64,000 bases of DNA from the NCBI GenBank assembly GCA_030280995.1, contig JASXTE010000013.1, positions 12,095,501 to 12,159,500 on the forward strand, given 5' to 3'. The notes under the pieces are model-generated. The model did no database searches, was not told where the DNA came from, and saw only the letters and a list, made by a program, of their open reading frames with translations. This document shows positions 762 through 53,649 of this stretch, one piece after another. The translations under genes were made by a program, and so were the position numbers. Numbering within the stretch: position 1 is the first letter of the stretch; every line of letters starts with the position of its first letter. Source of the stretch: Hemileia vastatrix (Eukaryota > Basidiomycota > Pucciniomycetes > Pucciniales > Zaghouaniaceae).

Positions 762-862
762 TTTGTTTGGTTATTTGGTGTTGTTTGGGTATGTCTTAAT
801 TGACATTGGTTGGAGAATTAGATGTTAATTTGGTTTTATTCAGTGAATTTTTGGACTATGAG

Positions 863-2035: not shown

Positions 2036-2543
2036 ATTGGGGGTCTTTCTTAGTTATTACTTATTGTTTTGTATAAGCCTTAGGACACAATTTTTACTCT
2101 AGTATATCTCAAAAAAACCAAATAATTGGGTCTTAAGGACATTAGTGGGTCGTCATAACTCAGTGATTGTGGAAAAGAACCCTTATAATAATTTTACTAA
2201 TTTTTTATAATAAAAATTAGGTATTTACAGTAGTAACTGTACCCAATATAAACCAAATTTCACTTGGTATTTGGTCACCAATATAACACCCAATTAAGTT
2301 GGTATTTGGTTAAAGATTGGTAAGCAAATTATTTACTCTTACAAAGGTCTTGTTAAACTTATTATTTAATTTTTAAAAGATTTATTCCAATTTTCTTATA
2401 TTTTATTTAAATAAATAAAGATGTAAATTCAGGGTAAGCTCCAGTGCTTTTATTAATAATTGTATTGCTAATAATTTTTGTATACTAATTACCATATAGG
2501 TTTTCCCTTTTGTAGACGTGTAAAATTGTTATTTAAAGACACA
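2036..2543 (+). promoter_or_regulatory. E1 leader: primer site candidate, hairpins, splice-like block
   Basis: Directly after the LTR comes AT then TGGGGGTCTTTC, a candidate primer-binding site; the same TTGGGGG(C) block follows the LTR of element B. At about 2252-2330 there are two hairpin units, CCAA...TTGG followed by TATTTGGT. Just before the gag ATG (2544) the sequence has TACTAAT (near 2482), a pyrimidine run and TTTTGTAG. This looks like a branch site and 3' splice site. The primer tRNA is not identified. Confidence 0.45.
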
Positions 2544-4641
2544 ATGAGTGCTCCACAGGACAATGTAAGTGAAAAACCTGCTTATAACACCAGGTCTAAA
2601 GCTAAAAACATTGCTCCAGGACATCACCATGGAGGGTCAATCCTACCCACAACCAGAGTCAATGAGCATAGAGGAAAAGGACACCCTCTTAAAAAAATAA
2701 CAATCAAAAAGACTTCACCTCCTCTGCAGGATTAACTGTCCCATCTGGAAAAGTATGTTCTGAAACTAGAGTAATCAAAGTCTTTCATGCTATAGGAGGT
2801 AGAGCAGTTGCAAAACAACTGCAAGGTGGGTTTCCAACAGATGAATCAAACCTTGGCAGAGCTAAAGGTAGTGAAGCCAAGCCAAAAACACCCTACCCTA
2901 GGAGGGTCACATAATTCCCAGGAAAAAATCCTGGTAGAGAAATGGAAGTGGGATTGGTTCCATCAGCAGTGTTCAAGCCACAATTGCAACAGGGATCCAC
3001 CCCCTCATCAGACTGCCTGAGCTCACCCCTACAAAGGAAAGCAAAAGCGCCAAAAATCAGGGCTTGCACAAATCCTGTGGTAAGTAGATTACCCTCTCAG
3101 ATTGAACACAATACTGATTATTACAATATAGGTAATATTATTGATGTAAAATCTGTACAGAGAATTGACAAGGACTTGAGAAAATTAGGTTTTGATGTAG
3201 ATACACCTGACTTATCTTTTGTCAATAACAACAGTACTATTTATAACAATAATACAGCTAATACTCAGTTGCCACAACTTATTAGTGAGATGAGAAGTTC
3301 ACAAAACAGTGAAAAAATTGAGAAGGAAGACATGGAGTATTTTAATAATAACCCTACTATCCATAGAATTGTTTCAGAATTATGGAATAGAATGACTGAT
3401 TGTGAGGAATAGACAGTTAAGCTCACAAGTGATACAATTTTGTCCTTGAAATTGAACATTTCTTAACTGGAAAAAATAAATAAAAAATTAGAGAATGAAC
3501 ATTTGGCTCTAACTCTCAAGTATGATCCTTTGAGTAATAAATATAGTGAAATTTCAAACAAATTCTGAAAGTTAGAAAATTTTTATGAAGCACATTTATT
3601 GAAAACGTAATCAAGAAAAAATTTATCTTTTTCCCAGACAAATCAGAGTGTCTCTGATCTGCTACAAAGATTAACTAAATTTAAGACTGAAACTGCTAAT
3701 CTACTAATGAATCAGGATAATCATAAGTATACTCAGTATAATAATAATCCTTTCATTAGAAAAAATGAATCTCAATCATCCCCATACCACCACAAGAAAA
3801 ACCATCAGGTTATAGTGTCAAGTCTGAGAATACAAATTTAAGTCACAAATCGGTGCAAGAGGAAATACAAGACCATTTATCTATAGTGAATGAGTTATTG
3901 AATTTACCTAAGATTGGTGAAATAAAATCCAATCAAAAGTATTGGCCAAATATTGATCAGTACCCAATTTATGATGGGGAAGCCAGCTCTGATTGGCAAC
4001 ACTTTATCCAAAGAATTGAAAACTTGAAATTCTCATACAAGTTACCAGATGAAGAAATAACATCAAAATTGATCTCTTTATTCAAGGATGTTGCTTTATT
4101 ATGGTTTGAAGCTGTTTTGAGTGAGGGTAAAGACTACTCTTGGGCTGAATTGAAACAACTAATTGAAAAAAAACTTGGAGGTTCTAAATTCAGACTCACT
4201 CAGAAAAGATTATATGAGAAGACTAAGTACAATCCATTGAATGGTGACAAACCTATGATATATTTAATGAATTTTAATAAAATATTAAAAGCCATTGAAC
4301 CAAACATAGATTTTAACTTATGGAAAGATAAGATAATATATAAATTACCTATATCTGTCAGAGACATTTTTTTAGCTAGAACAATAATGGTTAATGAATA
4401 CTATGATTTTATTAATATTTGTAATGAAATATTATTAAACCATAATTATGAAACAAGGTACATCACTTATAAACAAAATAATGAACCTGTGAAAAATCAG
4501 AATTTAAAAACACTTCAGGAGAAGCAGAAAAAACTTACTGCACCTGTAGTACCTAAAAAGTATGAAACAATTACTTGTTATAAGTGTAATAAACCTTGGG
4601 TGAAAAGTCAAAAATGTGAGAAGAATATAAATATTGTTTAA
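2544..4641 (+). pseudogene. gag of E1 (coiled coil, capsid, zinc knuckle), broken
   Basis: The ATG at 2544 opens a basic N-terminus (YNTRSKAKN), followed in other frames by a segment with KWKWDW, also present in element B, and by an Asn-rich and coiled-coil region (about 3100-3800). From 3853 a long open frame holds the capsid-like part (WPNIDQYPIYDG, DVALLWFEAVL, GGSKFRLTQ). It ends in a knuckle CYKCNKPWVKSQKC. In this family the knuckle is C-x2-C-x7-H-x-C, and here the His is Gln, so zinc binding is probably lost. At least four frame changes or stops break the gene. Gag coats the element RNA in the cytoplasm. Confidence 0.8.
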
Positions 4642-4803
4642 ATTCAGCATGAACCTGAAAATGAAACAGAAAAAAGTAAAGACTCAAGTGATTATGACAT
4701 TAATATCTCATATAGTGATGAAAATGAAGTCTGTACTTTGGAAAATTATTTTTCCATCTTTGAAACTCCAATATTAAGTATGGACTCAAATTAATTTTAA
4801 TTA

Positions 4804-5327
4804 ATTTTGAGGATGCTGAAATCATTAAGGATATACAAGATAATAACTTAAAAATGACACCTATCATGGTTCCAGCTATCATTTCTGGAGAGCATGTAAA
4901 TATAGTATTGGACACAGGAGCTTCTGGTTCTGTTGTTTCAAAAAATACATTACAGAAAATTGATAGTGAATATAAGTTAAAGCTTGAACCCCTTTAAAGT
5001 ACAAATTGGAGAGGTTTTGGATCAGTACTAAGCCCCATTGGTACATAAAAAGCTGCTGTTTTCTTTAAACATCAACATGGTTATGTTAGGGTAGCTTGTG
5101 ACTCTGTAGTAATGGATAATACTAATTGTAGTAACTGTTTTATCATTGGAAATGAAATTCTGACTAGGTTTGGTGTGAATTTAGACCCTGCTAATAATAA
5201 TTTTACAATTGGCATGAATGGTAAAAGGAAATTTAAAATAAATTCTTTTAACATAGTATTACACATTGAGTCAGTTATAAATATTCCTTTCATAGGAAGA
5301 GAATCCAATGAAATGGAACTTCTGTAA
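4804..5327 (+). pseudogene. aspartic protease of E1, broken
   Basis: Retropepsin signature VLDTGASGSVV is intact near 4905-4935. The downstream frame carries in-frame stops at about 4997 and 5047, then continues through the flap and C-terminal part (IIGNEILTRFG, GMNGKRKFK) to a stop at 5327. Here no stop separates gag-side sequence (EIIKDIQDN) from the protease, unlike in A and B. The role would be cleavage of the polyprotein in the particle. Confidence 0.75.
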
Positions 5328-5335
5328 ACAGAAAT

Positions 5336-6790
5336 TTTAAAAGCATCATTTGGCACTCAGATAAGTGAATCTGAGAAAAAAAATATTTTGGACTTAGTTA
5401 AAGCATTTCCAATGGCTTTTGCACATAAACCAATGAACTTGGCCTTGTAAAGGATCATGAAATGAAAATTAGTTTAACCTGTGATATGGATAATATTACT
5501 GCTAGTCTTAAAAAGAAACCATACCCTTCTTCACCAATGAAGAGGAAAGACATAGAGGATAATATTAAGATGTTATTTAAAATTAACATTATTGAAAAGG
5601 TTGAATCTACACCAAAATATTGTGTAATATCACCAGTGCTAATTTCTTATGAACAAGATAAATCAAGACTTTGCGGTGATTATAGACCATTAAATACATT
5701 CACAGTGGATGATATTTTGTCCTTGCCAAGTATGGCCTCTATACATGCCACCCTTAAAGGTGCTAAATATATAAGTTGCCTGGATGGAAATAAAGTGTAC
5801 CATCAGATTTCTGTAGAAAATAATTCACAGAACTTTTTGTTGATAACAACACATATGGAAATATATAAATATGTCAGGATGCTGTTTGGACCAAAAAAAT
5901 GCTCCTTCAGTATTTCAGAAATTAATGGATATAACATTCCATAATGAAATGATTGAGGGGTGGTTAATAGTATACATTGATGACATCATAGTGTTCTCTA
6001 AGACATATGAGGAGCACTTAATCCATTTGAAGAAGGTATTTCAGAAAATGAATGAAATAAAAATGACCCTTGGATTGACAAAATGTAAATTTGGGTTTGA
6101 GTCTTTAAAAGTGCTTGGTCATATTTTATCTGGCTTACAAATATGTGTAGACCCAAATAAGGTGGCTGCAATCTGGAATATTGGAATTCATCAAAATTTA
6201 AAGGATGTACCATATTTTCTTGGTATGTGTGTTTATTATAGAGAATATATAAAGTACTACAAATTAATTGCTGCACCATTGACCTCACTGATAAAGAAAT
6301 CAGAAGCTTTCATTCGGAATAATAAAATACAACAGGCTTTTAATAAGTTGAAAGAATGTTTGATGACGGCTTCTATCTTGGGATTACCAGATTTCCAATT
6401 GCCTTTTGTATTGTATACAGATGCAAGTCTTATTGGTCTGAGTGTTGCTTTGCATCAAAAACAACTTATTGAAGGAAAAATGTCAGAAGTAGTAATTTGC
6501 TATATTTCATGTACTATAAGTAGTAGTGAATTGAAATATGTTGCTACTCAAGTTGAATTTTTAAAAGTATTATGGGTCTTGAGAAGCTACATTATTACTT
6601 GGAAGACCAAAATTTTGAGTTAATAACTGACTGCAGTGCAGTTAAGTCACTCTTAAACATGAAAACTCACAATAGACATATGTTTAGATGGCAATTAGCT
6701 GTACAAGAGTACATAAGACGGATGACTATTACACATAGAGCAAGAACCTTACACTCTAATGTAGATCTGTTATCTAGAGTACCTCTACCC
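5336..6790 (+). pseudogene. reverse transcriptase and RNase H of E1, broken
   Basis: Palm motif A (ISCLDGNKVYHQ) and the catalytic YIDD box (VYIDDIIVFSK, near 5970) are present but in different frames, with a frameshift close to 5890. RNase H begins near 6400 with LYTDASLIGLSVALHQ and continues after a second frameshift near 6580 into a CSAVKSLLN block. LNM and RWQLAVQEY follow. Order and spacing match the open 651-residue frame of element B at 47114-49069, so the identification is safe. The enzyme copies element RNA into DNA. Confidence 0.8.
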
Positions 6791-8405
6791 AATATTAAGG
6801 ATAATCCTGCTTATGTTCCCAAAACAGAGATTATTAACATTTATGGCATTTATATTGTAGATCTTGAGGATGAATTTATGCAATCAATTCTTGATAAGTA
6901 TGCTTCAGATCCTGACTTGAGTAAGCTTACTAAAATATTAAATGATACATATAATGCTTCAATGAGTGTTTTAATAAAAACATTACCACAAAAGTATAAA
7001 GAAGCATTAGAAAAAGAAAAATTATCCATTGAGGATGGTTTTATATATTACAGGAAGAAATTAAGCAATGTAATTGTAATTCCTCCTTCAATGAAGGAGT
7101 TAATGTTAAGCATATGTCATGATGATATATTAGCAGGTAATTTTGACTTCCATAAAACATTAAACAAAGTAAAAAATACAGCTTTGTGGATTAACATGTC
7201 TTATGATGTTCAAAAATATGTTGAGACATGTAATTCTTGTCTAAAATCTAAAAGATTAAAAGGCAAAAGAGCTGGTTTATTACAACAACTTGACCGACCA
7301 AAATCTCCATGGGAAACAGTTAACATTGACTTTGTAACAGGTTTGCCAATAGCAGGGCATAAGAGTTATAGCTCCTGCTGGGTAATTGTACATAGATTTA
7401 CAAAAATGTGTAAATTTATTTCTTCCCACAAAGAGGTTTCTGAAAAGGACTTAGATTTTTTATGGTGGACACAAATGTAAAATATAGCAGGTTTCCCCAA
7501 AGAACTAGTCTCAGAAAGATATCCTAAATTTACTTCTGAGTCCTGGAAATCACTTATGGATGTTTCAGGGTGTCAATTAAAACTTTCTACAGCACACCAC
7601 CCACAAACTGATAGGCTAGCAGAGAGAATGATACAAACTTTAGAAGATATTATAAGAAGATATTGGGCTTTGGTCTTGACTTTAAAGACAATGAAAAATT
7701 CACACATGATTGGGTAATTCTTATCCCAGGTTTAGAATTTGCATACAATAGTACATTACATTCTGTCACTGGCAAAAAGCCATTTGAGTTATGGTTGGGT
7801 TATGTACCTAATACCCTTGCTAAAACACTTAATAAATTTCCTAGTTTGAATATCCATCCAGGTACAAAATCTTTTCTTCAGATGCAAGAATTATGCATAA
7901 AACATCCTCAAGAATGTATAAATAAGGCATCTGAGTATGAGAAAGAAAGATGGGATAAATCCCATAGAGAACAGATGTTCAAAGAGGGTGATTAAGTCCT
8001 TATTTCAAGACTACATTTCAATTTAAATGGTAATGTTAAATTGAAGGATCCATTCATTGGACCATTTTTAGTAAAAAAGATGGTTGGTAACAATGCTGTT
8101 GAAGTTATTCTATATGCACCATATGATAGAAAACATCAAGTATTTCCTATTTCTCTGATGAAACCAAACTATTCTAATGATACTGCTCTATTTCCAAGAA
8201 GATCAGGAAGGCATAAACAGCAACCTCAAGAAATAGTTGAAAAGGAGGAAATTGAAAAGATACTTAAAAAGAGACACCTTACTAAAGAAAAGGGAGTTGA
8301 GTATCTATTGAGGTTTAAACATAAATCAAGTGAATATGACTAGTGTATTGCAGAAAATGAAATCTCTGATCTTAAAAATCTCTTGAAAAAATTTAAATCC
8401 AAATA
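6791..8405 (+). pseudogene. integrase with C-terminal chromodomain of E1, broken
   Basis: The zinc-binding N-terminus is readable (CHDDILAGNF with Asn in place of the second His, then CNSCLKSK). In the core the first Asp is kept (NIDFVTGLP). The second is Glu in a changed block (SERYPKF instead of SDRDPKF), and the Glu of LAERM is kept. Stops lie at about 7480 and 7993. The C-terminus (EIEKILKKRH, EYLLRFKHKSSEYD) is a chromodomain, which in chromoviruses directs insertion to heterochromatin by reading histone marks. That targeting fits the dense repeat context but is inference. Confidence 0.8.
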
Positions 8406-8510
8406 ATACTTGTTAATTCAGTATATGTATCATAGAAATTTTAAAATTATTTCTCTATTCACTCCTTACTTATTAATTAAAGAGTCTTGAAATTTTATTA
8501 ATGTTTTCTT

Positions 8511-8522
8511 TGGGTGAGAGAG
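8511..8522 (+). promoter_or_regulatory. polypurine tract of E1
   Basis: TGGGTGAGAGAG lies immediately before the 3' LTR (TGTCAGCC at 8523). Position and purine content fit the plus-strand primer. A and B have similar tracts (GTGAGGGAG in B) at the same place. Confidence 0.7.
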
Positions 8523-9690
8523 TGTCAGCCTAGGTATATCCAGGACTGAGTAATTCTTATGTTTAAAATAAGATAACCTTAATAAAATTAGGATTATTAC
8601 TCAAAAATAAGGTTAAAAAACTTATATATATGATTATAATACATATATATATAATTATTACACTATTATGTGACCTATAGTATTTTGAATAGCTTATCCA
8701 TAGCCTAATAATACTTATTAAGGTGTTAATGGAGTTATAATATACTTATCTTAAGTGATATTGAGTAATTATAGACATACATAAGCTTATATGTATACAT
8801 AAACCTCATATTCAGTGAAATATGTAGTTATATTATGTATATTTAGGTCTATAAGTGGGTTTTAACCTCTTAATAGCCTATAAACTTTATTTTTCTGTTT
8901 ATTTTAGGTCATATGGACTTATCCAGTGGACTCACAATGCCTAAACAAGCATATACACTTATTTCAGGCACATATATTCAGTTTGGACAACATAATCTGC
9001 TTCCTTGGATGGATTTTCAAGGATTCATGAGTTGGGATATGATTACTGGGTTAATTTGGATGCTTGAGGATGTTATTAGGAGCTTGGAAAGTTAATTTAG
9101 TTCTTTTAAATGCTTTGTGTTTCATTTTATTATCTTTGGATGAGTTATTTTACCTGTTTATTTATGGTATCCGCCTTGATCTGTTTATTCTATTTATGGT
9201 ATGAGTCTGAGGTATCATTAATTGTGATGGAGGGTCCTTACTGGAGGTCTAAGTGTTGAAACTTCTTGAAGTGGACGCCATGGGGAGGTGATGGGCCCTC
9301 ACAGTGCTGTAATTTCTGGGATAGCAGTGACATTATCTGGTTTGAAGGTCTGTGCACTCCAGTAGATTTTGGTATAATTAAGGGAGGATTTTGACGGTTA
9401 TTAGACATCACTTACTTTCTAAAAATAAAATACAAACTACGAACCAATTATTATCATATATAAATATATTGTAAAGCATTTATAAATTGATATTTTTTCT
9501 ATATAAGCTATAACTATATTTTATTATTCTATTTTCCACCACTAGCACACAAAAATCCAAATATTGTGAATTTAAATAACTATTTTATTAGTCTTCCCCT
9601 GATGTTTAATCACTAAATCATTTATTAATAAGTAGTTGGACCATTAATATTTACTATTAAGTCATACTTAGATACTAGCATAAACTGAAA
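8523..9690 (+). repeat. 3' LTR of E1
   Basis: Starts TGTCAGCCTAGG, 1168 bp, alignable to 863-2035 throughout. The terminal CA has become AA (ACTGAAA). It differs from the 5' LTR at several CpG/TpG positions, for example TG at 8938, 9316 and 9328, and CG at 9172. Confidence 0.9.
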
Positions 9691-9749
9691 ATGGGTGTGT
9701 GCCTACTACTATTGGGTAGCTCTGGTTTTTCTCTATACTTTAGGTCTCG

Positions 9750-25130: not shown

Positions 25131-26090
25131 GAAATATTTAATCAGTAATTATTTTTACTTTATTTAAAGAAAAATAAGGAAAAAAAATATTATATAAGTA
25201 ATTATCAGGACTTTGTAATCAACTGGAATAATTAAAATATAATTTTTATTAGGACAAAAAATTAACTGAAAAAATAATCAAAGTTTTATTAAATTTATGG
25301 TAATTTTATAACCAGGATTTAAAATAAATCAACTATTATAATAAAATAATTTAATAATTAGTAATATTTTGATAATTATCAGGACTAGAAGTCAACTGTA
25401 GAATTTAATTACCAGGACTTAATTTCAACTGAAAATAATTTTGATTACCAGGACTTATTGTCAACTGAAATAATTTTAATTACTGGGACTTATTGTCAAC
25501 TGAAATATTTTTAATTACCAGGACTTAATGTCAACTGAAATAATTTGATATAATTAATTTAATCAATTTTTAATATTATTAATTTACAGCCAGTACAATT
25601 TGTCAACTGAAACAATAAATAAATTTCTAATTATAAGGACAGAGGTCAACTGTATTAATTAAAAATAATAATATAGTTAATTTAATATTATATATCACTT
25701 CTAGGACTAAGAACAATATAGTTCTATCTTTGTCAACTAGGAAAAAAAAATTTTATTTGCCAGACACCTCCCCCTGTAAAATGAACAAGTTAATGCCACT
25801 TTACAGAGTGCTGAGTAATAAAAGATTTACATGTACAATGAAATGTGTAAAATGACCCACAAATAGTAATCAAACAATTACCATGAATATATATGACTAT
25901 TTTCAATATATGAACTTAAATTTTGGAGCGCGGTTCGATTCCGGTTTGCAGCAAAAAAGTAAGTCACATGGCTGATGACATTCGTCATCTTTATTTTCTA
26001 CTCCTCCTACCGGTACCTCATCTTCAATGGTCCCTTGGTTTCCGGCTTCAAGATATTGATGCGCCCTCAACAATTCGGAAAGGGCCTCAA
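25131..26090 (-). promoter_or_regulatory. leader of element A with about ten hairpin repeats
   Basis: Between the LTR and gag about ten units lie at 25200-25745. On the plus strand the common form is ACCAGGACTTAATGTCAACT followed by GAAA. Inner stems vary (GAC/GTC, GACT/AGTC, GATTT/AAATC and others), while the outer CAG and AACTG are kept. A GGTTCGATTCC motif lies at 25932-25942. Close to gag, in element sense, come CTGAT, a pyrimidine tract and CTCAG, like a 3' splice site. Confidence 0.65.
25932..25942 (+). promoter_or_regulatory. T-arm/B-box-like motif in leader of A
   Basis: GGTTCGATTCC is the consensus of the tRNA T-arm and Pol III B box. It is on the strand opposite to the element genes and is conserved in element B at 52697-52707. 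No A box or foldable tRNA precedes it. In element sense it would be complementary to a tRNA T-arm. Confidence 0.4.
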
Positions 26091-36727: not shown

Positions 36728-37770
36728 TTGATAGATCAAAAGTCTGATAGACTAATTCGTTTCCACACCTGCTGAAGAAATTTCCTCATCATTAAGTTCT
36801 TCATCTGCTGATACCAAAAACACTACTACATCATCTAACTCTCAACCTTGACCATCACAAAGAAGTCCATATATTTAATCAGAAATGACCTATCAGTCCT
36901 CAGATAAACTCCTGAAGGTTCCTATACTTACAAGTGGGAATGTCTTGTTATGGAAGTCTATAATTGAATTTTACTTTGAATCACAGGATTTTCTTCATCA
37001 TATAAATTCCGCAATATGACCTAAGGATTCTAATCCAACAGATTGGAGAAGAGGTAAAGCAAAATCTTAATTGATAGTTATGAATTCTGTGAATTTCAGA
37101 GATTGATTACTGGTTTCTAATGCTGAATCTACATATGCTGCTTGTCACAAGATTTTATCCGATTATGGAAAAGGAAATGTGTCAACTGTATTTGACTTGC
37201 TTGATAAACTTGTGTATTTTAAATGGGATGGGTCTTCTTTCTTGCAGGAACATCTATCTAATTTTGAATAGCTTGAAAATTCACTGACTGACAGTGCTTT
37301 GAGTGATCAAAATTTAGTTATCTCCTCAAAAATAAGAGCTATGATTCTTGTTAAAAGTGTTCATCACAAATCAATGATTGGCATTACGAAAAATCTTTTT
37401 CAAAATATCAAGACCCTGAATCTTGAAAACATTTATGAACATTTGAAATCTGAGGCAAGCTGCAGACAGAGGGAAATGGAGCTTATAGATAGAACTATTT
37501 CAATGAAAGCTGAAAAGCAAATAAAGAAATCAAAACCAAGACCAGTCTCTCCAACTAAAAAAGACAAAAAACAATTAAAGTGTCAACTTGTTCATAATAG
37601 ACATATGGAGAAAAATTGCATCATGCAATTAAGAGAACAGCTAAAAAAGTTAAAGGCCTCGTCTAGTGATAGTGCAAAACTTGCTGAGAAAGTAAATGAA
37701 TCAGCATCTCTTGTTGATATTGATGGTCTTGAGGAGTCTGCTTATATGGAAAATTCTAAAAATAACTGTA
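36728..37770 (+). pseudogene. gag of Copia G, broken
   Basis: After a Ser/Thr-rich start with stops, the frame has MTYQSSDKLLKVPIL (from 36885), NVLLWKSIIEFYFESQDF and a helical region (LDKLVYFKWDGSSFLQEHL). From 37299 the frame is open. A degenerate knuckle reads KCQLVHNRHMEKNC, in which the second Cys is Val and the spacing is one short. The same form is in H, so it is a family trait or inherited from one defective source. Stops at 37017, 37069, 37107 and 37269. Confidence 0.75.
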
Positions 37771-39185
37771 CTGGCTTTGTTTTAGACTCTGGGGAAACAT
37801 GCCACATGGTCAATAATAAAGAACTACTTACCAAAGTCACAAATCTTACTAGAACTGCAAAAATTAGCACTGCTGGAAATAAATTTTCAACAGCTTATTT
37901 TAGTGGAAATCTTCCTATCTCTCACTCACTTATTCTTCAGAATGTTCTTTTCATAAAAAATTTATTGACCAATTTAATCTCTGTCAATAAATTAAATAGG
38001 TTGGGTCTCACAGTCAATTTTTTACCTGAAGAAACAAACAATTTTGATTTGAAAAATTCTTTGGTTTCTAAATTCTCACATAAAGGTCAGAAGCAGAATT
38101 CATGGTATGCAAACCAAACTGCCTATATATCCTCTTCACCTATACATACTTTATATAAATTTAATTTGTGTCTATGACATCTTAATACAAAGACCCTTAG
38201 AACTTTTCTCAGATCAAAATTTTTTGATTATATTGATGATTGATTTGACTGTGTCACTTGTGCTAAAAGAAAAATAGTTAAAAGTCCCTTTAACTCTGTT
38301 TTACTTACTACTACAATACCATTATTTTGGATTCACTCTGATGTTATTGGAACCATTGATTCTCTGAAGCTTGGTGGTTGTAGATACATCTTAACCTTCA
38401 TTGAAGATTGCACAAGATACTCTACAATTTTTCTTATGAAATTTAAATCTGAAGTTTATGTTAATTTTATTAAATATCAACATGATATTGAGAATAAGAT
38501 GGAAAAAAAGATTAAATATTAAAAATGTGATAGGGGAGGGGAGTATGGTTTAGGTCATTTTTTCAAAAATTTGGATGAGTGTGGTATAACATGTGAACAG
38601 GCTCCAGCTAGAACACCTCAACATAACTCTGTAGCTGAACAATATAATAAGACCTTCATAGGAAAAATCTGTACCATTTTAATTGACTCTGAATACTTGG
38701 CTGAGCTATGGGGTGAGTGTTCTATGCACTGAAATACTCTCATAAATCCTTTACCTCATTCAAAATTTACTTCTTTCTCACCACAAGAAAAACTTAATTC
38801 CTTTATGCCTGTTGAAGGATCTCATTAAATTGATTATAACTTTTTTAAATGATTTGGTTCTTTGGCTCTCAGAATAATTGATAAGGAGACTTGCTCAAGT
38901 AAATTTCAGTCAAGAGGTAAGGATTGTGCTATTTTTGGTTATGAACCAAACTCCAAGAGCTATAGACTTTATGATAAAGTTACAAAAAAGATAGTTATCT
39001 CTGAAAATGTTAAATTTTTTGAATTAAGAACGTATTTCAGCAAGGATTTCACTGAAATTCATGTCTCCAAATACATTTCTCTACCCCTTTTTCCTAACAA
39101 AACTCTTTCATTTAATCCTACCTCAACTGTTCTTCCATTGTTCCTAACACTTATTGTACATCTTAACACCATTAATATCAAATAG
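37700..39185 (+). pseudogene. protease and integrase of Copia G, broken
   Basis: The protease active site reads FVLDSGETCHMVNN; the family form in H is DSGAT, so Ala is Glu here. The integrase core keeps SDVIGTID with the first Asp, KCDRGGEYG with the second and NSVAEQYNKTF with the Glu. The tail 38862-39185 contains GYEPNSKSYRLYDKVTKKI, usual for Copia integrase ends. Stops at about 38175, 38240, 38520 and 38730. Confidence 0.8.
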
Positions 39186-41264: not shown

Positions 41265-42295
41265 ATGCTATCCTCATCTTGCCTATCTCTCACAGAAACG
41301 CAGTTCAGAGCTTGCTGTCAAGCTTTTTTAAAGCATTACAGTTTTTCCTTTTCTATTCCTATTGATCAAACTATTCTTCGTTCTAACCACTGCACTCAGG
41401 ATCCTTTAGATAAACTAAACCAGATTTGCTCCGGGTGGTCATGGATTGAGCCTACTGTAGTGAGTTTAGTTGATCCTTTGAAATACATCTCATACTGCAC
41501 ACATAATTTTTAGTGAAGACTACAATGATGATTTACTCATCTCTATTGTTTTTTTTTTTTTTTTTTTTTTTTTGCTGCGCTGTTGTTGCTGGTGATTAAT
41601 AACCGGTGACGTAGAATAAATATGTTAACAATTTGAGGGGGGCTTTGGTCAAAGATTTTAAGAGGTATATCTGGTATTCATCACTTGAGAATCTCCAACT
41701 GGAAGAGAAAGAGAACGACGGATTGTGGGAGGAGCCAGTGGCTGAACACTCAATAGCAGCAAACCCTTTAATTTCAACCCCAAGAAAAACTTTGATCCCG
41801 ATTTCACTTACGCTTTCAATCGTGTATTCCGTTACCTTCAAAGTTCCAGCGATTCATATATCACCGTTTAATCAGTCAGGAACTATGATAGATGTAAATG
41901 AACTACTTGCTTCTGATGTGTTTCATAATTTTTCATCAAATTCCGAATTTGGTGGACAAAACAATCACTATCCTTTCAGCACTCTCACTCAAAGAACACA
42001 AGTCGCACATGATGAGGAACTATCCGATCACGAACCGGAAGATGGTTCTCAACTCGCGTCACTCCCATTTCTCACTCTTGCTGAACATCCAGTCTCGGGG
42101 ATTCCTGGCTATCTCATTCACCCCTGTAACACTGCTCAGGCAATGGGAGAACTTCTTTCCTCTATGCACTTTCGAGATGATGAAACTTTCGCCATACCAT
42201 TAGATGATGCAAGTTCAGATGGTGAAAAGGAACTAATGCAATTTCTAGTTTCATTTTTGACGCTTGTTAGCTCAATAGTAAAGCTAACTGATTAA
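41265..42295 (+). CDS. ATG10: probable autophagy E2-like enzyme Atg10
   Basis: Two exons, 41265-41459 and 41615-42295, joined in phase 0, give 291 residues. Atg10 transfers Atg12 to Atg5, a conjugation needed to build autophagosomes, in the cytosol. The call rests on SIVYSVTFKVPAIHISPF, like the Atg10 YSxxYQVPVLYF strand, and on the C-terminal block HPVSGIPGYLIHPCNTAQAM. There HPC carries the catalytic Cys (about residue 236) of known Atg10 proteins. LSLTETQFRACCQAFLKHY fits the N-terminal helix. Between the strand and HPC is an acidic insert (DEELSDHEPEDG). It has no stop or frameshift and contains many CpG, unlike all flanking elements. The donor GTGAGT is good; the acceptor GTAG is less certain, so the exon junction may differ. 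Confidence 0.75.
41460..41614 (+). other. intron of the atg10-like gene with a 25-base T run
   Basis: It starts GTGAGTTTAG and ends GACGTAG. The upstream exon closes a codon and the downstream frame opens in phase 0 (NKYVNNLRGAL). The intron includes 25 consecutive T at 41549-41573. A later AG (41636) would not keep the frame. Confidence 0.55.
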
Positions 42296-44253: not shown

Positions 44254-45006
44254 CTCCGCTTACTTCATACATTATTAAATTCAAAGAATTTTTATCCTTA
44301 TCAAAGCAGATACAAGGCTGCTGTTAAGTGAAAATGTCAGCTAACATATCAGCTGTAGGACAATATTTGATGCAAATTTCATTTTGCCAAACATTTTGTC
44401 ACAGCCAATGATACAGACATCAATATGCTTAGAACATTCATTAATTTGTGCTTCTTTGGTCAGGAAGATTGCTCATTCATTATCACAAAATAATTTGGGA
44501 GCATTAATGCTTGAAAGAAGAAGTGGAAGAGAAATATTTTCATTTAAGGATAAAAAATGTTTTGATAACCAAATCAGTGTTTTTTAACAATTGCACATAG
44601 CAATATATTTCACTTCAGGGGTAGATAGGGAGACTCCTTTTTGATGGCAACTTCTCCATGAAATTGGACCATCATTCAGTAGAATGACATAGCCAGTGAT
44701 AGAGCAATGTGTAGCTTTTCAGTTAGCATAATCAGAATTACTGAAAGATTTAAGAGTAACATCAGCAATATTTTTTGGAAACTTGATCCCAACATTCTTG
44801 TTGGTTATAACATATTGCAAAAGCTTGAGAGAAAGACACCAATGAGATGGAGAGTGATTAGAATTTTATTTTGACAAGGCATTCAGAGCTTCACTGATAT
44901 CTTGTTGAGTGTAAATGGAAAAAAAATTAAGTGATCCAATTAGTTCTTGATAAGGATGATCCTTTCCTTCCAATGTTTCATCAGGAGTAGGATCACTGAG
45001 AGAACA
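44254..45006 (-). pseudogene. RT end and RNase H of Copia H
   Basis: In element sense: LSDPTPDETLEGKDHPYQEL, then NSDYAN and KATHCSITGYVILLNDGPIS, SLSTPEVKYIAM and the C-terminal helix. Stops lie in the SDADWA-like block, in the loop after IAM and near 44328. A purine tract GAAGTAAGCGGAG precedes the LTR at 44253. Confidence 0.75.
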
Positions 45007-45797
45007 TGTCAAGGGGTCCTTTTGGGTCTAGAAGTTTATTTGAGTTTTATACGAGAAAAATTGGGGATTTAATGAACTCTCAAAGTAAAGTACATATTTT
45101 CTTAATCAAATTGATTTATTTGCTCAATTATAAGAGGTAGGTTTTAAATATTAGTATAATTTATAGATTAGAATTACGTTGTTGTAAGTACTAAGCTTAT
45201 AAAATATAGAAATAAGTATTGTTTTGTAATTGTAGTAATAAGTAATTGATGAATGAATGTTCTGAAAAGCACAAAGTAAGAGGCCTTTTATAGGCAAAAC
45301 ATGAGGGAATAAAATATACGGAATTTATACCATATACTGTAAGAAATGTGAGAAAAAGAATGACTAAAAGGAGTACATATATGACATAAGAAATAAATAA
45401 ACTGGTACGTCAACAAGGGCATCATATTTATTAGCAATAAAGTTTGAGTTCCTTGGACTGTCACAATTAATTACACAATAATTAATTAATTATATTACTT
45501 TCACAGGATTCCAGATCTTTTACTGAGGTAATATAATTGTTTTAAAGTTTTTTTATTATAATTTTATTATTAAATTCTATTCCCATTGACTTATACTATT
45601 GAGCACGGTGTTAGGGAGTAAAATTGTAGGGGACATATTATTTACACTAATTAATTATACTAATTATTGTACTTAACTAGTTAATTGTAAGTAATACTTA
45701 AGTAGATAATTAATTATTAGTAAGAAGAAGGGGTGTGGTTTCAACTCAGTCAAATAATTAATTATTTTACCAGTTAAGTCTAGTAGCCTGGCTGACA
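45007..45797 (-). repeat. 3' LTR of element B
   Basis: 791 bp with ends TG...CA; in element sense it starts TGTCAGCCAGGCTAC and ends CCCCTTGACA. The promoter-like GCCTATAAAAGGCC lies on the minus strand at about 45280. The purine tract GTGAGGGAG precedes it at 45798-45806. Confidence 0.9.
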
Positions 45798-45830: not shown

Positions 45831-47130
45831 CTATGATTTTTTCTTTTTACACTTTTTTAGTGAAGTAGGAAGATTAGATATCTCCTTCCCAGGTATCCAA
45901 GAATCATATTCAGATGATTTATTCTTGAATCTCAATAAGTATTCTGTACCTTTTTCATCAGTGACTATTCTGTCATTTAGAATTTTTTCAATTTCTGCTG
46001 TTTCAGTGATTTCATTTGGGGTTTTCTTTGGTCTTCCCCTCCTTTTTGGAAATAAATCACTATTGGATGTGTAAGGTTTCAGAAGAGATATTGGAAAAAC
46101 AGGATGTTTTCTGTCATATGGAGAATACAAAATAACCTCAAATGCATCATCTCCAATCATTCTTCTGACAACAAATGGACCAACAAATGGATCATTCAAT
46201 TTGTTATTACCTTGTAAGTTGAAGTGGACTGTAGAAATCAACACTTCATCACCCTTTTTAAAAGTGTATTCCTTATGGGATTTGTCCCATCTCTTCTTCT
46301 CATATTCAAATAATTTTTCAATACATTGTTGAGCATGCTTTCTGCATAGTTGTTGCATTTGAAGAAAAGACTTTACACCAGGATGTATATCCAATTTAGG
46401 TATTTTGTTATTAAGAATTTGGGCAGGAGTATTTGGAACATATCCAAGCCAGAGCTCAAAAGGCTTTCTTTGAGTAACAGAATGAACAGTGCTATTATAA
46501 GCAAATTCCAACCCAGGAAGTAAGGTAACCCAATCATGAGTGAATCTGTCATTATCTTTATACTCAAGGCCAAAGGCACAATACCTTCTAATCATTTCAT
46601 CTAAAGTCGGAATCATTCTTTCAGCTAAACCATCAGTCTGTGGATTGTGGGCAGTAGAAAGTTTCAGATCACAACCACAAACATCCATCAGAGACATCCA
46701 AAATTCAGAAGTAAATTTAGGGTCTCTGTCAGAGATTATGGCTTTAGGAAAACCAGCAGTATTAAACATATGAGACCACCATAAGAAAGCTAATTCTTTA
46801 GTGGAAACATCCTTGTGGGTAGGGATAAATTTACACATTTTTGTGAATCTGTCCACAATAACCCAACAAGAGTTATAACTGTATTTACCAGCAATAGGTA
46901 ATCCTATTACAAAATCCATGTTTATAATCTGCCATGGTGCATCAGGAGGTTCAATATGTTACATTAATCCTGCTCTTTTACCAGTTAATCATTTTGATTT
47001 TTGGCAAGAATCACAAGACTCAACATATAATTTTGTGTCTTCAGACATATTAACCCATCAAGCAGTGTTCTTAATTCTGATCATTGTTTTTTCAAGATCA
47101 AAATGTCCAGCTATTATGTCATCATGACAA
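45831..47130 (-). pseudogene. integrase with chromodomain of element B
   Basis: The zinc-binding part is readable upstream of 46919 (CHDDIIAGHFD and CDSCQKSK in the right frame) and carries a TAA near 46960. The core is open: MDFVIGLPIAG, SDRDPKFTSEF and GLAERMIPTLDE give the intact D, D, E triad. After GDEVLISTVHFNLQ comes a basic linker (KRRGRPKKTPNE), then the chromodomain EIEKILNDR to SSEYDSWIPGKEIS. It ends KKCKKKKS at 45831. Integrase inserts the DNA copy; the chromodomain probably guides it to silent chromatin. Confidence 0.85.
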
Positions 47131-49069
47131 ATTTCAAGATGATTTCTCTCATAGAAGGAGGAATAACAATAACATTACTCAACTTACTCCTATAATATAG
47201 ATATCCTTTATCAATTGAAAATTTACCTTTTTTCAAAGCCTTCTGGTACTTTGGTGGAAGGGTTTTAATTAATGCTTGTATTGAAGCATTCTTTGAATCA
47301 TTTAATATGGTGCATAACTTTTTCAAGTCAGTGTCCTTATCATATGAATCCAGAATAAGCTGTAATAGCTCTTCCTCCATATCAACCACATATATCCCAT
47401 GTATATGAATAATTTCATCCTCAGGATCATAAGCAGGATTAGAGTCATTATTTGGTAAAGGTAACCTAGATAACATATCCACATTTGAGTGAACAATACC
47501 AGCCCTATGAATAATTGTCATTCTCCCTCTGTATTCTTGAACAGCCAACTGCCATCTGAACATATGTATGTTTGGTGTTTTCAAGTTTAAAAGGGATTTA
47601 ACTGCACTGCAGTCAGTGACAATTTCAAATTTCTGATCATCTAGGTAATAATGAAGCTTTTCTAGAGCCCACACTACAGCTAAACATTCAAATTGAGTAG
47701 CACCATATTTCAATTCACTATTTCTCAAGGTTCTTGAAATATAACAAATTACTACTTCTGAAACTTTATCATTTATCACTTGTTTTTGATGGAGGGCAGC
47801 ACCAAGACCAATGAAACTGGCATTAGTGTACAAAACAAATGGTTGATTAAAGTCAGGTAAAGCAAGAATTGGTGCTGACATCAAACAGTGTTTCATAGTG
47901 TCAAAAGCTCTTTGTCTTTCACTATTCCAGACAAAAGCAACATCCTTTCTAGTTAATTGGGTAAGGGGTAAAGCTATGACTTGATAATTTTTAATATACT
48001 GTCTATAGTATCCACACATTCCCAAAAAAATTTGGAGCTCTCTAACTGTAGTAGGAGCCTTCACCTGTTGTATGGCTGCCACTTTGTTTTGGTCAACACA
48101 TATCTGTAGGCCTGAAACAACATGACCAAGAAATTCTAAAGAATGGAAACCAAATTTACATTTCTTCAAAGCAAGTGTCATATTTATTTCATCCATTTTT
48201 TGGAATACTTTACACAGGTGGTTAAGATGGTCCTCAAATGTTTTTGAGAATATAATGATATCATCAATATAAACCATCAGCCATCCTTCAAGTATCTCTC
48301 TATGGAATGTGTTATCCATGACTTTTTGGAAAACTGAAGGGGCATTTTTAGGGACAAATGGCATCCTAATATACTTATAAATACCCATATGAGTGGCAAT
48401 CATCAGAAAGTTCTGAGAATTCTTCTCAACAGGTACCTGGTGATATCCTTTGTTACAATCCAAACAGGTGATATATTTAGCACCTTGTAAAGTAGCATGT
48501 ATAGAGCTAATTCTAGGTAAAGGGTAAATATCATCAACAGTATAAGTATTTAGTGCTCTATAATCACCACATAACCTGGCTTTATCTTTCTCATAAGAAA
48601 TTAGGACAGGTGAGATAACACAATATTTAGGTGTTTCAACTACCTTTTCAATAATATTCATTTTTAAAAGGGTAGAGATATTGTCCTCAATATCTTTTCT
48701 CTCTGTGGGAGAAGCAGGATAAGGCTTCTTCTTTAAACTAGGTGGTATATCAGTTAATGGGCAAGACAATAAAAGTTTCATTTCCTCTTTAACTAATCCC
48801 AGTTCATGTGACCCATGAGCAAAGGCCATAGGAAAAGACTTTATCAAGTTAATGATGGAATCTTTATGCTCACCAGAAAGTCTTTCTCCAAAAGGGGCAT
48901 TGTCCATTTCAGAAAAAAGGGCATTCATGTCTTTTGTAGATCTTCCTTTACATTGAACCACAGAATTATGTGTGTTCAATTCTGGTTTCAATAATTTTTT
49001 AGGGGAGGAAATCTTAAATTTTCTCTTCCCATTCATCCCCATTGTGAAACATTGGTTTGAGGGATCCAA
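47114..49069 (-). pseudogene. reverse transcriptase and RNase H of element B
   Basis: A single open frame of 651 codons. RT motifs: KKKPYPASPTERKDIEDNI, LCGDYRALNTYTVDDIYPLP, ITCLDCNKGYHQVPVEK, RMPFVPKNAPSVFQKVM and the catalytic VYIDDIIIFSK. RNase H follows with LYTNASFIGLGAALHQKQ (the first Asp of DAS is Asn), the ATQFECLAVVWALEKLHYYL block and a VTDCSAVKSLLN block. The frame ends in a linker to integrase, where a one-base loss shifts it at about 47120. It has no start codon of its own; it would be made as part of a gag-pol product. Confidence 0.85.
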
Positions 49070-49078
49070 TTTTATGCC

Positions 49079-49402: not shown

Positions 49403-51850
49403 TTAGCTATCCTCAATGTTCCTTATGATCTCAGCATCCTCAACTGTAGATAAATCATTATTATCAATATCAATAGTATTTAAATAATGAATATCTTCTT
49501 GCAGCATCAAGATTTCTTGTTGAGATTCATATGAAATATTTCTGGCACAATCACTTGACGTATCATCCAGTGCTACTGTGTCATCAGCATGCTCCTCTGT
49601 TTGTTCTACAAGATTTATCTTGTCACAAACATGGCCTTTCTGCCAAGGCTTGTTGCACTTGAAGCAAGTGTTTGTTGCATACTTTTTTGGTGCAACAGGG
49701 GCAGAAGGTTTACCAACCTTTTCCAGAGGTTTCTGTTGGTAAGTGGAGGGTTTCTCCAAAGGGGTCCTAGGAAGGAATCTTCTGGAATCATACTTGTTGT
49801 TTAGAAGGATCTCATTGCAAGTATTAATGAAAGAAGAGGGTTCTCTGGAGAACTCATACCTAGCCACTATCAAGTCTCTCAGAGATATTGGTAATTTATA
49901 AAGGATCCTCTCCTTCCATAACTCAAACTCCATATTTAGGTCCATTGCCTTTAAGATTTTTACAAGTTTCATTAAAAAAATCAATAGGTTTATCAGTAGA
50001 AGGGCTATATCTAGCTTCCTCATACTGCCTTTTTGAGCCATTCTGAACTTGGAGCCACCAAATTGTGCTTTAATCAATTTCTTCCAATCCTCCCATGAGT
50101 AGTCATTCCCATCCAGGAGAACAGATTCATACCACATCAGGGCAACATTAGTGAACAAAGAAATTAACTTGGACACAATTTCCTCATCTGGGAGTTTGTA
50201 AGAATTTTTTAAGTTATCAATTCTGCAAATAAATTTTTGCCAATCAGAGGAAGAATCACCATCAAATGTTGGGTACTGGTCATGTTTTGGCCAATTATTT
50301 TTGATTTGAAGGAGTCTCCTTAGTACAAGCTTGTTTCTGAGTAAGGAGCAGCTCTAACTTCTCTAGTTGGGCAGTAATCTCATTGTTCAATCCCTCTGTT
50401 AAAGGTCCTGGTGCATCATTAATTTTTAATTGAAACTCAGGGGTATCAACATGTATTTCTGGAACTGATTTACTTTTAGATGAACTAGCCACAGGTAACT
50501 CTGTAGCATCCTGTACTGTTTGTTCCTTCAAAGAAATCTCAGAATACTTCTGATCAATAAACAATGAGTTCAATTTCTCCTCAATGGTTATTAGTCTAGT
50601 TTTAAATCTTGGAAGACTAGATAAATTCTCATTGATTGTTGAAAAGATAACTGATTCTTATTTTGAAAATATGAAAAATGGTCATTAAATCTTTTCAGAT
50701 TCATCTTATCTATCTCCACCTCCTGGCCACAGACAGATATAGTATCTTTTAGTTTAGACAAATCATTTTTTATATTTTGCCATAAAGCAACTTTATTTTC
50801 ATGGGTTGCTTTGTAATGAGACAATTCATCAGAGACTCTCTGTGATTCACTTCTTAATGCTTGATAACCCTGATCAGTTAAAAAACTATTATATCTCTGA
50901 GTCAACTGCATATTGTTCATTATATGGTTTTGTTTGGCAATAATATCTCTCAAGTACTCATCATTAATCTTTGCTACATCTGGAGTGTTTCTCAATAAGG
51001 AAACTGAGTAACTTTCCAGACTATCATAGAGCTCAGGGTCAAGAGTTTCATCAATTACAGCCATATCAGGGTTAATCATTTATGTAGAAATTAAAAGTAA
51101 TTGATTAGATACATGAGTTATTTTTCTACTGCTCCCAGCCTCTACTGGTATTAAGGTTTCTTCTTCCCTCTCAGATTTACCTGAAAGAACAGAATCAGCT
51201 ACAAGAAATGGCACTTGAGAATCAATAGAGGGGCGTACCAGGGTTTGCTGGGTATGACCATTTTGGGCTTTCTTCTTCTTTTTCCTCCTTGATAGGGGTG
51301 AGGAGGTGTGGGGTTGACCTGGTTGGGTCTTGAGGGACCTGCCTGAGGTAACTGATGCTGATTTTGAGACAGGTAGTCCCACTGAGTGTTTAACCAGTCC
51401 CACTTCCACATGGACACTTCCACCTTTTCTTGGGACGTGGGAGCCAATTGTTGTTGATCCCTGGGAGGAAGAGGTTTCTTCTTCTCTTGAAGAAAGTTAT
51501 CTATCCTTCTCACCTTTTCTTCCAGAGAATCTACCCTTGCCTTTAGTCTCAAGTTTTCTGTCCTTAGCTCCTTTATGTGAGTTGACAGATTCTTTACCTG
51601 TTGAGGGAATGGCATCTTTTTTATCCTGAAGCCTTTTGGAAGTTCTTCTGGTGGGTTTATCATAGGCTTCTGATCCAGAGTTGTGTCTACTAGGATTTCT
51701 AATTCTTCCATCTCTACATCCTGTTTGGGGCAAGGATTTATCAATCTGAGAAATTCTTCTTGTTAAAGGAGAACTTACAGAAGTAGGCTCATCATAATCA
51801 GTCAAGTCTAGTTCCTCTTCACGTGCAGCATAACCACTTTGGTCAGTCAT
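49403..51850 (-). pseudogene. gag of element B
   Basis: The start MTDQSGYAAREEELDL at 51850 is followed, in two overlapping frames, by RRTSKRLQDKKD and by a coiled coil (IKELRTENLRLKARVDSLEE) ending with WKWDWLNTQ. Then come a basic Pro-rich part, a second helical part (50591-51079), a Ser/Pro linker and the capsid (WPKHDQYPTFDGDSSSDW, DYSWEDWKKLIKAQFGGSKF). The intact knuckle CFKCNKPWQKGHVC (C-x2-C-x7-H-x-C) and an acidic tail ending EDS before TAA complete it. Frame changes near 51745, 51250, 50640 and 50045. Confidence 0.8.
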
Positions 51851-51859
51851 TTTAAGATT

Positions 51860-52857
51860 TAACTGAAATGAAGAAAAGAGACAATAAGATGAATTAGTCT
51901 TTATTTTTAATTTTTATTTAACAGAAATAAAATAAAAATAATAATAAAAAAATTTTTTTAGGATAAAAATCAACTAAATAAAACTAATTTATTAATTCAA
52001 AAAATAATTTAAAACCAGGATTATAATATAATCAACTGAAGAAATAAATTAAAATTTTTATTAATAATTTTAATTAATTATTTTCAGGATTTAAATTAAC
52101 TAATTTATTACCAGGACTTAATGTCAACTGAAGTAATTAAATATGAATTTTATTAATTAAAAATATTTTTTTATTAAACTGATCACTTAACTACCAGGAC
52201 TTAATGTCAACTGAAGTAATTAAATATGAATTTTTATTAATTAAAAAATTTTTTTATTGAACTGATTACTTAACTACCAGGACTTAATGTCAACTGAAGT
52301 AATTAAATATGAATTTTTTTTAAAAAAAATTTTATTGTCAGGACAATTTGTCAACTGGAACAAATAAAATTTAAATTAATCAGGACAAAAATGTCAACTG
52401 AAAATTGTAATAATTAATATTAAAATATAATTCTTTATTACTTCTGGGACTAAGAACACTATTGCTCTATTATTGTCAACCAGGAAAAATAAAAAAAATA
52501 TAATAATAAAATTAAATTCAAATTACCAGACACCTCCCCCTAAAAAATGAGCAAATTAATGCCACTTACAGAGTGCTGAGTAAAAGGAAAATACGTAGCT
52601 AATGAAAAGTGAAAAGTAACCCACAAATATTAATATAAATAATTACCACAATATATACAACCTTTAGTCAATATATGAACCTAATTTTTGGAGCACGGTT
52701 CGATTCCTGTTCACAGCAAAATTTTTTGTCACGTGACGTATGATGTTTGTCATTTTTGTCGCTCTCTCGTCCTTACAGGTACTCAAATGCCGATGGTCCC
52801 TTCGATTTACGCCCTCAAATCACAATGCGCCGTCAATAATTCACAAAGGCCCCCAAT
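51860..52857 (-). promoter_or_regulatory. leader of element B with about nine hairpin repeats
   Basis: After the LTR, in element sense, comes ATTGGGGGCCTTTGTG, a candidate primer site. About nine units lie at 51958-52490. Three are identical in CCAGGACTTAATGTCAACTG (plus strand, 52112, 52192, 52275) within a tandem of about 80 bp. Others have stems GATTAT/ATAATC, GACAA/TTGTC and GACA/TGTC. In element sense GACTAAT, a pyrimidine tract and TTTCAG precede the gag start at 51850. Confidence 0.65.
52697..52707 (+). promoter_or_regulatory. T-arm/B-box-like motif in leader of B
   Basis: GGTTCGATTCC, the same 11 bases at the matching place as in element A (25932-25942), although the surrounding 150 bases have diverged. 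Opposite to the element's coding strand. Confidence 0.4.
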
Positions 52858-53649
52858 TTTCAAGGGTTCCTTTTGGGTCTAGAAGTTTATTCAAGTTTTA
52901 TACGAGGAAAATTGGGGATTTAATGAACTCTCAAAGTAAAGTACGTATTTTCTTAATCAAATTGATTTATTTGCTCAAGTATAAGAGGTAGGTTTTAAAT
53001 ATTAGTATAATTTATAGATTAGAATTACATTGTTGTAAGTACTAAGCTTATAAAATATAGAAATAAGTATTGTTTTGTAATTTTAGTAATAAGTAATTGA
53101 TGAATGAATGTTCTGAAAGGCACAAAGTAAGAGGCCTTTTATAGGCAAAAAATGAGGGAATAAAATATACAGAATTTACACCATATACTGTAAGAAATGT
53201 GAGAATAAGAATTACTAAAAGGAGTAAATATATGACATAAGAAATAAATAAACTGGTAAGTCAACAAGGGCATCAAACTTATTAGCAATATAGTTTGAGT
53301 TCCTTGGACTGTCACAATTAATTACACAATAATTAATTAATTATATTACTTTCACAGGATTCCAGATCTCTCACCGAGGTAATATAGTTGTTTTAAAGTT
53401 TTTTTTATTATAATTTTATTATTAAATTCTATTTCCATTGACTTATACTATTGAGCACGGTGTTAGGGAGTAAAATTGTAGGGGACATTTTATTTACACT
53501 AATTAATTATACTACTTATTGTACTTAACTAGTTAATTGTAAGTAATACTTAAGTAGATAATTAATTATTAGTAAGAAGAAGGGGCGTGGCTTCAACTCA
53601 GTCAAATAATTAATTATTTTACCAGTTATGTCTAGTAGCCTGGCTGACA
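52858..53649 (-). repeat. 5' LTR of element B
   Basis: 792 bp, closely matching 45007-45797. The outer end TGTCAGCCAGGC is intact. The inner CA has become AA (TTGAAAA). Confidence 0.9.

Follow-up and report, generated by a model that had tools for sequence, protein, structure and literature searches.

A repeated bulged hairpin in the 5′ leader of an abundant retrotransposon family of Hemileia vastatrix points to a structured RNA array with a proposed docking role

What purpose might be served by a series of small stem-loops, each different from the next, in the leaders of two related Ty3/gypsy long terminal repeat (LTR) retroelements? The question is raised by a 64-kb stretch of A+T-rich eukaryotic DNA from Hemileia vastatrix (hereafter the window; contig JASXTE010000013.1, positions 12,095,501 to 12,159,500), which holds numerous LTR retroelement pieces, among them the elements A and B. 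The original prediction, made from the letters of the window, placed a hairpin array in the leader of each element and proposed that both arms of the stems change together under selection on structure. Covariation across 101 arrays of the host genome, strand-specific pairing and a double change in a large terminal unit support such selection, and the sequence statistics as a whole support hairpins that are real, that work as transcript-sense RNA and that lie in a leader nearly free of AUG. A repeated bulged hairpin in the leader of a very abundant retrotransposon family points to a structured RNA docking array, possibly one for packaging.

Both arrays were found where they had been claimed, on the minus strand. 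That of A (25206..25739) comprised 11 units, at 25206-25225, 25250-25268, 25313-25335, 25380-25398, 25413-25431, 25449-25467, 25484-25502, 25519-25537, 25591-25609, 25635-25652 and 25702-25739; that of B (51959..52482) comprised 9, at 51959-51976, 52016-52038, 52085-52102, 52112-52130, 52195-52213, 52278-52296, 52339-52357, 52381-52400 and 52445-52482. All were located and scored, and 8 of the 11 and 6 of the 9 were found by a covariance model (R1). The last unit of each array is a large one: that of A (25702..25739, minus strand) reads CUAG ... CUAG and is the counterpart of that of B (52445..52482, minus strand), which reads CUGG-UU-GAC, an inner hairpin and GUC-CCAG and whose 4-nt lower stem reaches one base past each end of this span.

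In the transcript sense, an example unit reads CAG UU GAC AUUAA GUC CUG, with CAG paired to CUG, GAC paired to GUC and UU left as a bulge. The consensus over the 101 sampled arrays ran from an outer stem through UU, CAG, UU and GA-N.. to a loop and back through ..N′-UC and CUG to the outer stem, giving a helix of about 6 to 16 bp whose 5′ strand carries one or two bulges of 2 nt. The first, UU, separates CAG/CUG from GA../..UC; units with an outer stem have a second below CAG, mostly UU or UC (of 393 distinct units in the genome sample, 302 had UU there and 48 had UC). Minimum free energy (MFE) folds with 12-nt flanks placed an outer stem below this second bulge in several units, such as B5, B6, B7, A1 and A8. 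The AA originally noticed next to CTG is kept, but in the RNA it is a UU bulge of 2 nt that separates two helices. The CAGTT and CCTG described as unit ends are present, their CAG and CTG themselves forming a stem rather than mere flanks. Likewise, the A+T-rich DNA between units, described as not conserved, tends to pair mutually over about 6 nt on each side of a unit. No match at gathering score was returned by Rfam for the window against 4,227 families.

Units of this form were more frequent than chance allows. The pattern CAGTTN{4,26}CCTG matched 18 times in the window against 7.8 expected, a number reached in 0 of 100 shuffles, and 11 of the 18 matches lay inside the two arrays. An anchor-free descriptor with no letters fixed (3 bp, a 2-nt 5′ bulge, 3 bp, a loop of 3 to 8 and at least 3 G-C pairs) picked out 4 units of A, where shuffles averaged 0.05, and 5 of B, where they averaged 0.02; eight alternative bulge arrangements yielded one match in all in the window arrays (a 3′ 2-nt type, in B). 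Model R1, which was built from 49 units, had 14 matches in the window at E ≤ 1, every one of them on the minus strand and within the two arrays, and the B array folded as a whole better than its shuffles (z −3.1).

The host genome (747.6 Mb searched) contained the exact two-unit pattern 4,419 + 4,405 times (8,824 adjacent pairs), against 28 + 21 (49) for the reversed pattern, as well as at least 40 copies of the array of A (89-100% identity) and at least 40 of that of B (92-100% identity). Together with the two leaders of the window, 110 retrieved loci made a set of 112, of which 101 were retained as distinct arrays; these hold 688 units and 182 distinct cores. Near copies of A and B make up loci L131-L170. 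Loci L171-L240 come from the first 4.9 Mb of one contig and were selected with an exact pattern in which CAG, GA, TC and CTG are fixed, which makes the invariance of these letters in the sample partly a matter of construction. In an anchor-free topology scan of the 101 arrays, loci that had themselves been chosen by their units, the 5′ 2-nt bulge gave 518 matches against 0-5 in three shuffle sets, and the bulge was TT in 509 of the 518, with no letters fixed. Two other arrangements also exceeded shuffles (5′ 3-nt with 3′ 1-nt, 366 matches; 3′ 2-nt, 72), and these mostly represent other registers of the same units, 352 of the 366 and 69 of the 72 overlapping the main matches.

Within the window alone, covariation column by column was modest. 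Column-wise swapping among 17 distinct cores gave P 0.014 for the third upper pair, P 0.037 for the lower stem and P 0.029 for all seven pairs, with P 0.18 for the upper four pairs and P 0.51 for element A alone. An arm-swap folding test, which joins the 5′ half of one unit to 3′ halves taken from the rest and folds the result, has greater sensitivity; applied to the window cores, it gave z −4.33 for 15 non-redundant units and z −3.65 for the 13 without the two large units, with z 0.08 ± 0.91 in 60 control draws from other A+T-rich DNA, and for A alone it was not significant once flanks were included. With the host genome's other arrays, the joint change of the arms became firm, and stronger than first claimed. 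The test used 86 representatives, any two of which were set apart by their length or by differences at 7 or more of some 43 sites (length-only variants being counted separately). U3, the third upper pair, was a standard pair in 71 of them against 56.3 expected, a value reached in 0 of 20,000 permutations. The outer pairs O6 (57 against 40.6, P 0.0001), O1 (73 against 66.9, P 0.0025) and O5 (65 against 56.3, P 0.005) were likewise above permutation. In 49 gapless units, 81.2% of cells were paired. Shuffles gave 78.9%, a value at least as high as the observed one being reached in 7 of 500, and slid registers gave 29-47%. The covariation score was 0.149 against 0.117 (4 of 500 as high). None of these covariation statistics is tree-aware, and related arrays are not independent.

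The large terminal unit, matched in 70 of the 101 arrays, changed on both sides at once: CUGG/CCAG occurred in 33, CUAG/CUAG in 23, the mispaired CUAG/CCAG in 2 and other forms in 12, one of the latter still paired through G.U. When the 40 near copies of A and B were set aside, the corresponding counts were 19, 14, 1 and 9 of 43. Both sets of counts were made without a tree, and the double change between CUAG/CUAG and CUGG/CCAG may be a single ancient event. The two outcomes named beforehand as telling against selection on structure, a lack of covariation and stems no commoner than in shuffles, were both looked for, with statistics that are not tree-aware, and neither appeared.

Equal pairing on both strands is expected of a DNA dyad, so a strand contrast in the flanks points to RNA. 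With 8-nt flanks, the arm-swap test gave z −2.10 in the transcript sense and +0.22 in the antisense; with 12-nt flanks, the values were −3.05 and +0.93, and the window's own 13 units showed the same contrast (−2.79 vs −0.10). U.G also outnumbered C.A at U3 (34 vs 7), O1 (101 vs 18) and O4 (47 vs 2), an asymmetry assessed on more copies because inside the window alone it was too small to decide; U1 was uninformative here, since the search pattern fixed its C. Of 60 large units in which the inner stem was matched, 36 had AGAGC/GUUCU, one pair of which is G.U.

AUG was strongly depleted from the arrays. Across the 101 arrays (36,992 nt), 43 were present in the transcript sense against 600 expected from base composition, and 417 against 582 in the antisense; 70 arrays had none. 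Neither window array contained any (8.9 and 6.9 expected), the B leader of about 1 kb had one against 15.1, the more decayed A leader had 6 against 17.3, and antisense AUG in B was as expected (7 against 8.0). The leader of a third element, C (2042-2543), held 1 against 9.1 expected, and because this leader lacks units, AUG exclusion is to be regarded as a property of the leader rather than of the hairpins. Most simply read, this places the array in RNA that ribosomes probably scan and traverse, and the depletion speaks against one role offered in the original prediction, an internal translation start at which ribosomes would enter without scanning. Downstream of the array, ATGACTG[AG] was found in 48 of 59 other long loci, and gag-like sequence, by one of two tests, in 58 of the 59.

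What, then, might the array do? The account that we favor, and hold tentatively at slightly less than an even chance, is that its RNA hairpins, set one after another in the 5′ leader of a chromovirus family, serve as docking sites, likeliest for the element's own Gag, in packaging or dimerization; the packaging step itself we would rate at less than even. Each bulged hairpin would be a docking site, most likely for the nucleocapsid of Gag, and several sites together would provide avidity and thereby selective packaging or dimerization of genomic RNA. By its position between the 5′ LTR and gag, the array would lie where a retroviral-type packaging signal is expected, between the primer binding site and the gag start of the genomic RNA. 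Retroviral psi lies downstream of the major splice donor; if the array lay in an optional leader intron, only unspliced RNA would bear the sites, as with psi. An extended form of this proposal, which we consider a good deal more speculative, would make the arrays a multivalent RNA code, in which hairpins resembling TAR, variable in number and held in an optional intron, dock Gag while splicing sorts translated from packaged RNA. If that were true, the number and quality of units would tune fitness and trans-mobilization across thousands of copies.

Several observations weigh against this account or against its foundations. Covariation was borderline at L1 and O2 (P 0.07 and 0.08) and not significant at U4 (n 56), U5 (n 8), O3, O4 and O7; in the gapless units, 2 of 5 measures, pairs changed on both sides (102 of 500 shuffles) and further pair types (155 of 500), did not exceed shuffles. 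Cores alone scored equally on both strands in the arm-swap test (z −4.81 transcript, −4.93 antisense), G.U was rarer than A.C at O2 (4 vs 9) and O5 (13 vs 16), and antisense AUG was scarce in the A array too (2 against 8.0). The A array as a whole folded no better than its shuffles (z 0.07), and in MFE folds with 12-nt flanks A5, A7, A10, A2 and B3 lacked the expected hairpin, and some other units did not fold in the same way as those with the outer stem. Nor do both arms always match, as had been thought: A2, A5, A7, A9, A10 and B3 each have at least one broken core pair, and a recurrent unit type (interior GAAATTAAGTC, 19 copies) retains an A.G mismatch at U3, which may be a functional exception to the pairing rule. 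The C leader is without units by the anchor-free descriptor, so relatives need not all have an array. The GAAATTAAGTC type occurs in loci L171-L240 and in the window at 25413-25431.

Translation control, splicing control and DNA binding all rank below a Gag docking array. According to the first, which we judge unlikely, the hairpins would slow ribosomes during scanning, or gate them, or else bind a host regulator of Gag synthesis, with no role in packaging. The exclusion of AUG in the transcript sense makes scanning by ribosomes probable, and the array lies immediately upstream of the gag start, which suits such control; yet the unit-free leader of C is also poor in AUG, and a conserved upstream frame, as in ribosome-shunting leaders, was not found. 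The upstream open reading frame of 29-36 codons in A and B was accordingly rejected as a conserved frame, one of 20 codons or more being present in 5 of the 23 locatable loci (of 59), and the leaders have several small hairpins, not one large one.

Somewhat more doubtful is splicing control, in which the array would be the body of an intron and the hairpins would hide CAG and CUG|GU look-alikes and so keep some RNA unspliced. A candidate leader intron of B (51863..52526, minus strand), which would hold the whole array, is suggested by sequence signals similar to those in other copies: a donor-like CTG|GTAATT at 52526, a branch-like CTAAT at 51893-51897, and a pyrimidine tract with CAG at 51863-51865. 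Upstream of the array, a conserved GGGAGGTGTC-like motif was present in 55 of 61 loci, followed by GT in 51 and GC in 4, and before the gag ATG, branch-like CTRAY, a pyrimidine tract and YAG occurred together in 32 of 55 loci against 0.5 in shuffles, although these loci are related and the counts not independent. Most units, moreover, start with YYCAG. The continuation of CUG by GU, in 147 of 393 distinct units, lends the idea something, but it is also too infrequent for splice sites to be a conserved feature of the unit, a candidate that was rejected. The large unit of B has UGG replacing CAG, with the partner changed to match, and AUG exclusion is not expected in an intron that is always removed. 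Two patterns designed for copies of spliced RNA matched 3 times and 0 times, respectively, with no resemblance to the junction among the 3. Given the donor-like and acceptor-like signals on either side of it, the array may lie in an optional leader intron; its removal by splicing would fit somewhat poorly with AUG exclusion, except where ribosomes translate the unspliced RNA as well. By eye, element C shows a compact intron-like 82 nt (GTAAGC ... TACTAAT ... TTTTGTAG, 2434-2515) before an ATG at 2544.

Binding of a protein to dyads in DNA is, in our view, improbable. The Drosophila gypsy insulator offers a precedent, with its 12 protein sites in an A+T-rich 5′ untranslated region (UTR) (PMC2374998), and the unit core is an inverted repeat in DNA whose score is equal on both strands. 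Against this stand the interior length of the units, which varies from about 9 to 30 nt, the excess of G.U over A.C, seen at U3, O1 and O4 though not at O2 or O5, and the pairing of the outer stems in transcript-sense RNA alone. Protein binding had been among the roles first proposed, and the strand specificity argues against its simple DNA form. Least probable of all is that the units are by-products of tandem duplication, spread by slippage and only apparently paired: recent tandem copying is seen in B4-B6 and in the A5-A8 block, and the covariation statistics are not tree-aware, but covariation persists among the 86 representatives, and the A-U to G-C double change falls in the large unit, which is not tandem.

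The gene content around the arrays was as follows. Element B has a 5′ LTR at 52858..53649 and a 3′ LTR at 45007..45797 (both minus strand; 96.2% identical over the aligned part), recognized by LTR alignment and by a 5-bp target-site duplication, gaaca, outside both LTRs (45002-45006 and 53650-53654). Its leader (51851..52857, minus strand) extends for about 1 kb between the 5′ LTR and gag, and the gag start (51497..51850, minus strand; ATG at 51850) is the next gene after the array. The encoded Gag has a Cys-His box of the CxxC..GHxC kind, which we take to be such from the form of the motif. The pol of B, in pieces (45834..49078, minus strand), matches reverse transcriptase, RNase H, integrase (31.3 bits, slightly below the Pfam cut-off of 32.6), SH3_Tf2-1 and a chromodomain (Chromo, 28.8 against a cut-off of 25.1). 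Because these domains, with the chromodomain C-terminal, and the LTRs occur in one element, B is on its domain content a chromovirus, that is, a Ty3/gypsy element with a chromodomain. Named matches in a protein search with the B pol were largely from Austropuccinia psidii (37-56% identity) among the matches listed. Scans of viral contigs led nowhere: they revealed no pol relative, and 120 stretches were reported for a loose pattern. Element A, a relative in a more decayed state, shares 86% identity with B across 5.6 kb. The third Ty3/gypsy element, C (860-9695, plus strand), has LTRs 91% identical to each other and a pol about 73% identical to those of A and B.

A conserved stretch of the leaders (52690-52720 and 25926-25955) resembles, on the plus strand, a tRNA T-arm and 3′ end (GGTTCGATTCC core); a simple pattern for it matched 23 of 59 other loci, and ARAGORN found no tRNA in the 64-kb window. 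At about 140 nt from the 5′ LTR of B, this stretch is too distant for an ordinary primer binding site, and ATTGGGGG, on the minus strand at 52836-52857 adjoining the 5′ LTR and common to element C (2036-2043), is the likelier candidate. Locus L241 (2478-4803) has an LTR, a leader with 3 strict units (about ten by eye) and then an LTR-like start, with no gag between; it is possibly a deletion derivative or a nested insertion. The LTR-leader-LTR arrangement of L224 and L241 was not used as support for a cis signal, since the place looks rearranged (shared LTR, nested pieces). Elsewhere in the window, a host-gene-like reading frame at 41615-42292 (plus strand) matches Autophagy_act_C (Pfam PF03987) among the retroelements, and a 2-kb piece is present in two copies of opposite orientation (37099-39148 and 54696-56743; 96.3% identical), the first of which carries a copia-type Pol_BBD domain.

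Genomes like that of Hemileia vastatrix are rich in Ty3/gypsy elements, and the packaging signals of such elements are, to our knowledge, poorly known. The thousands of unit pairs form a natural mutational series in which unit number, stem identity and decay could be set against copy success. If the hairpins bind Gag, they would offer a simple model of multivalent RNA selection; if they do not, they would still be a conserved RNA element without an Rfam match.

How does such an array compare with known systems? The original prediction knew of no described element of this form, and along with the Rfam result, a search of the open-licence literature agrees in that no retrotransposon leader with a repeated bulged hairpin was found in the portions of text available, which is not proof of absence. 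The bulged hairpin of the TAR type has a short stem, a 2- to 3-nt pyrimidine bulge on the 5′ side and a second stem, and occurs as a single copy at the 5′ end of lentiviral RNA; the layout of stem, bulge and stem is the same here, by general description, and we know of no trans-activator for these units. Retroviral psi consists of a few different hairpins, which may lie downstream of a splice donor, a position that the array would only possibly share; here, in contrast, one type of bulged hairpin is repeated in variable copy number. Dependence on structure and a place in the leader also mark retroviral packaging signals (PMC5035971), structure being what chiefly matters in the avian O3 stem-loop. 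The repeated motifs of Sireviruses are similarly high-copy palindromes with a fixed core and variable intervening bases (PMC2829016), but they have a CGG-CCG core, lie mainly in the LTR and form CpG islands, and their symmetry was taken by the authors as typical of transcriptional activators. The Drosophila gypsy insulator, with 12 Su(Hw) sites, is also an array of short units in A+T-rich DNA within the 5′ UTR of a Ty3/gypsy element (PMC2374998). Its sites are DNA with a linear consensus that is independent of strand pairing, whereas in the arrays described here the arms covary, the flanks pair specifically on the transcript strand, and the evidence favors a repeated unit of paired RNA in one strand.
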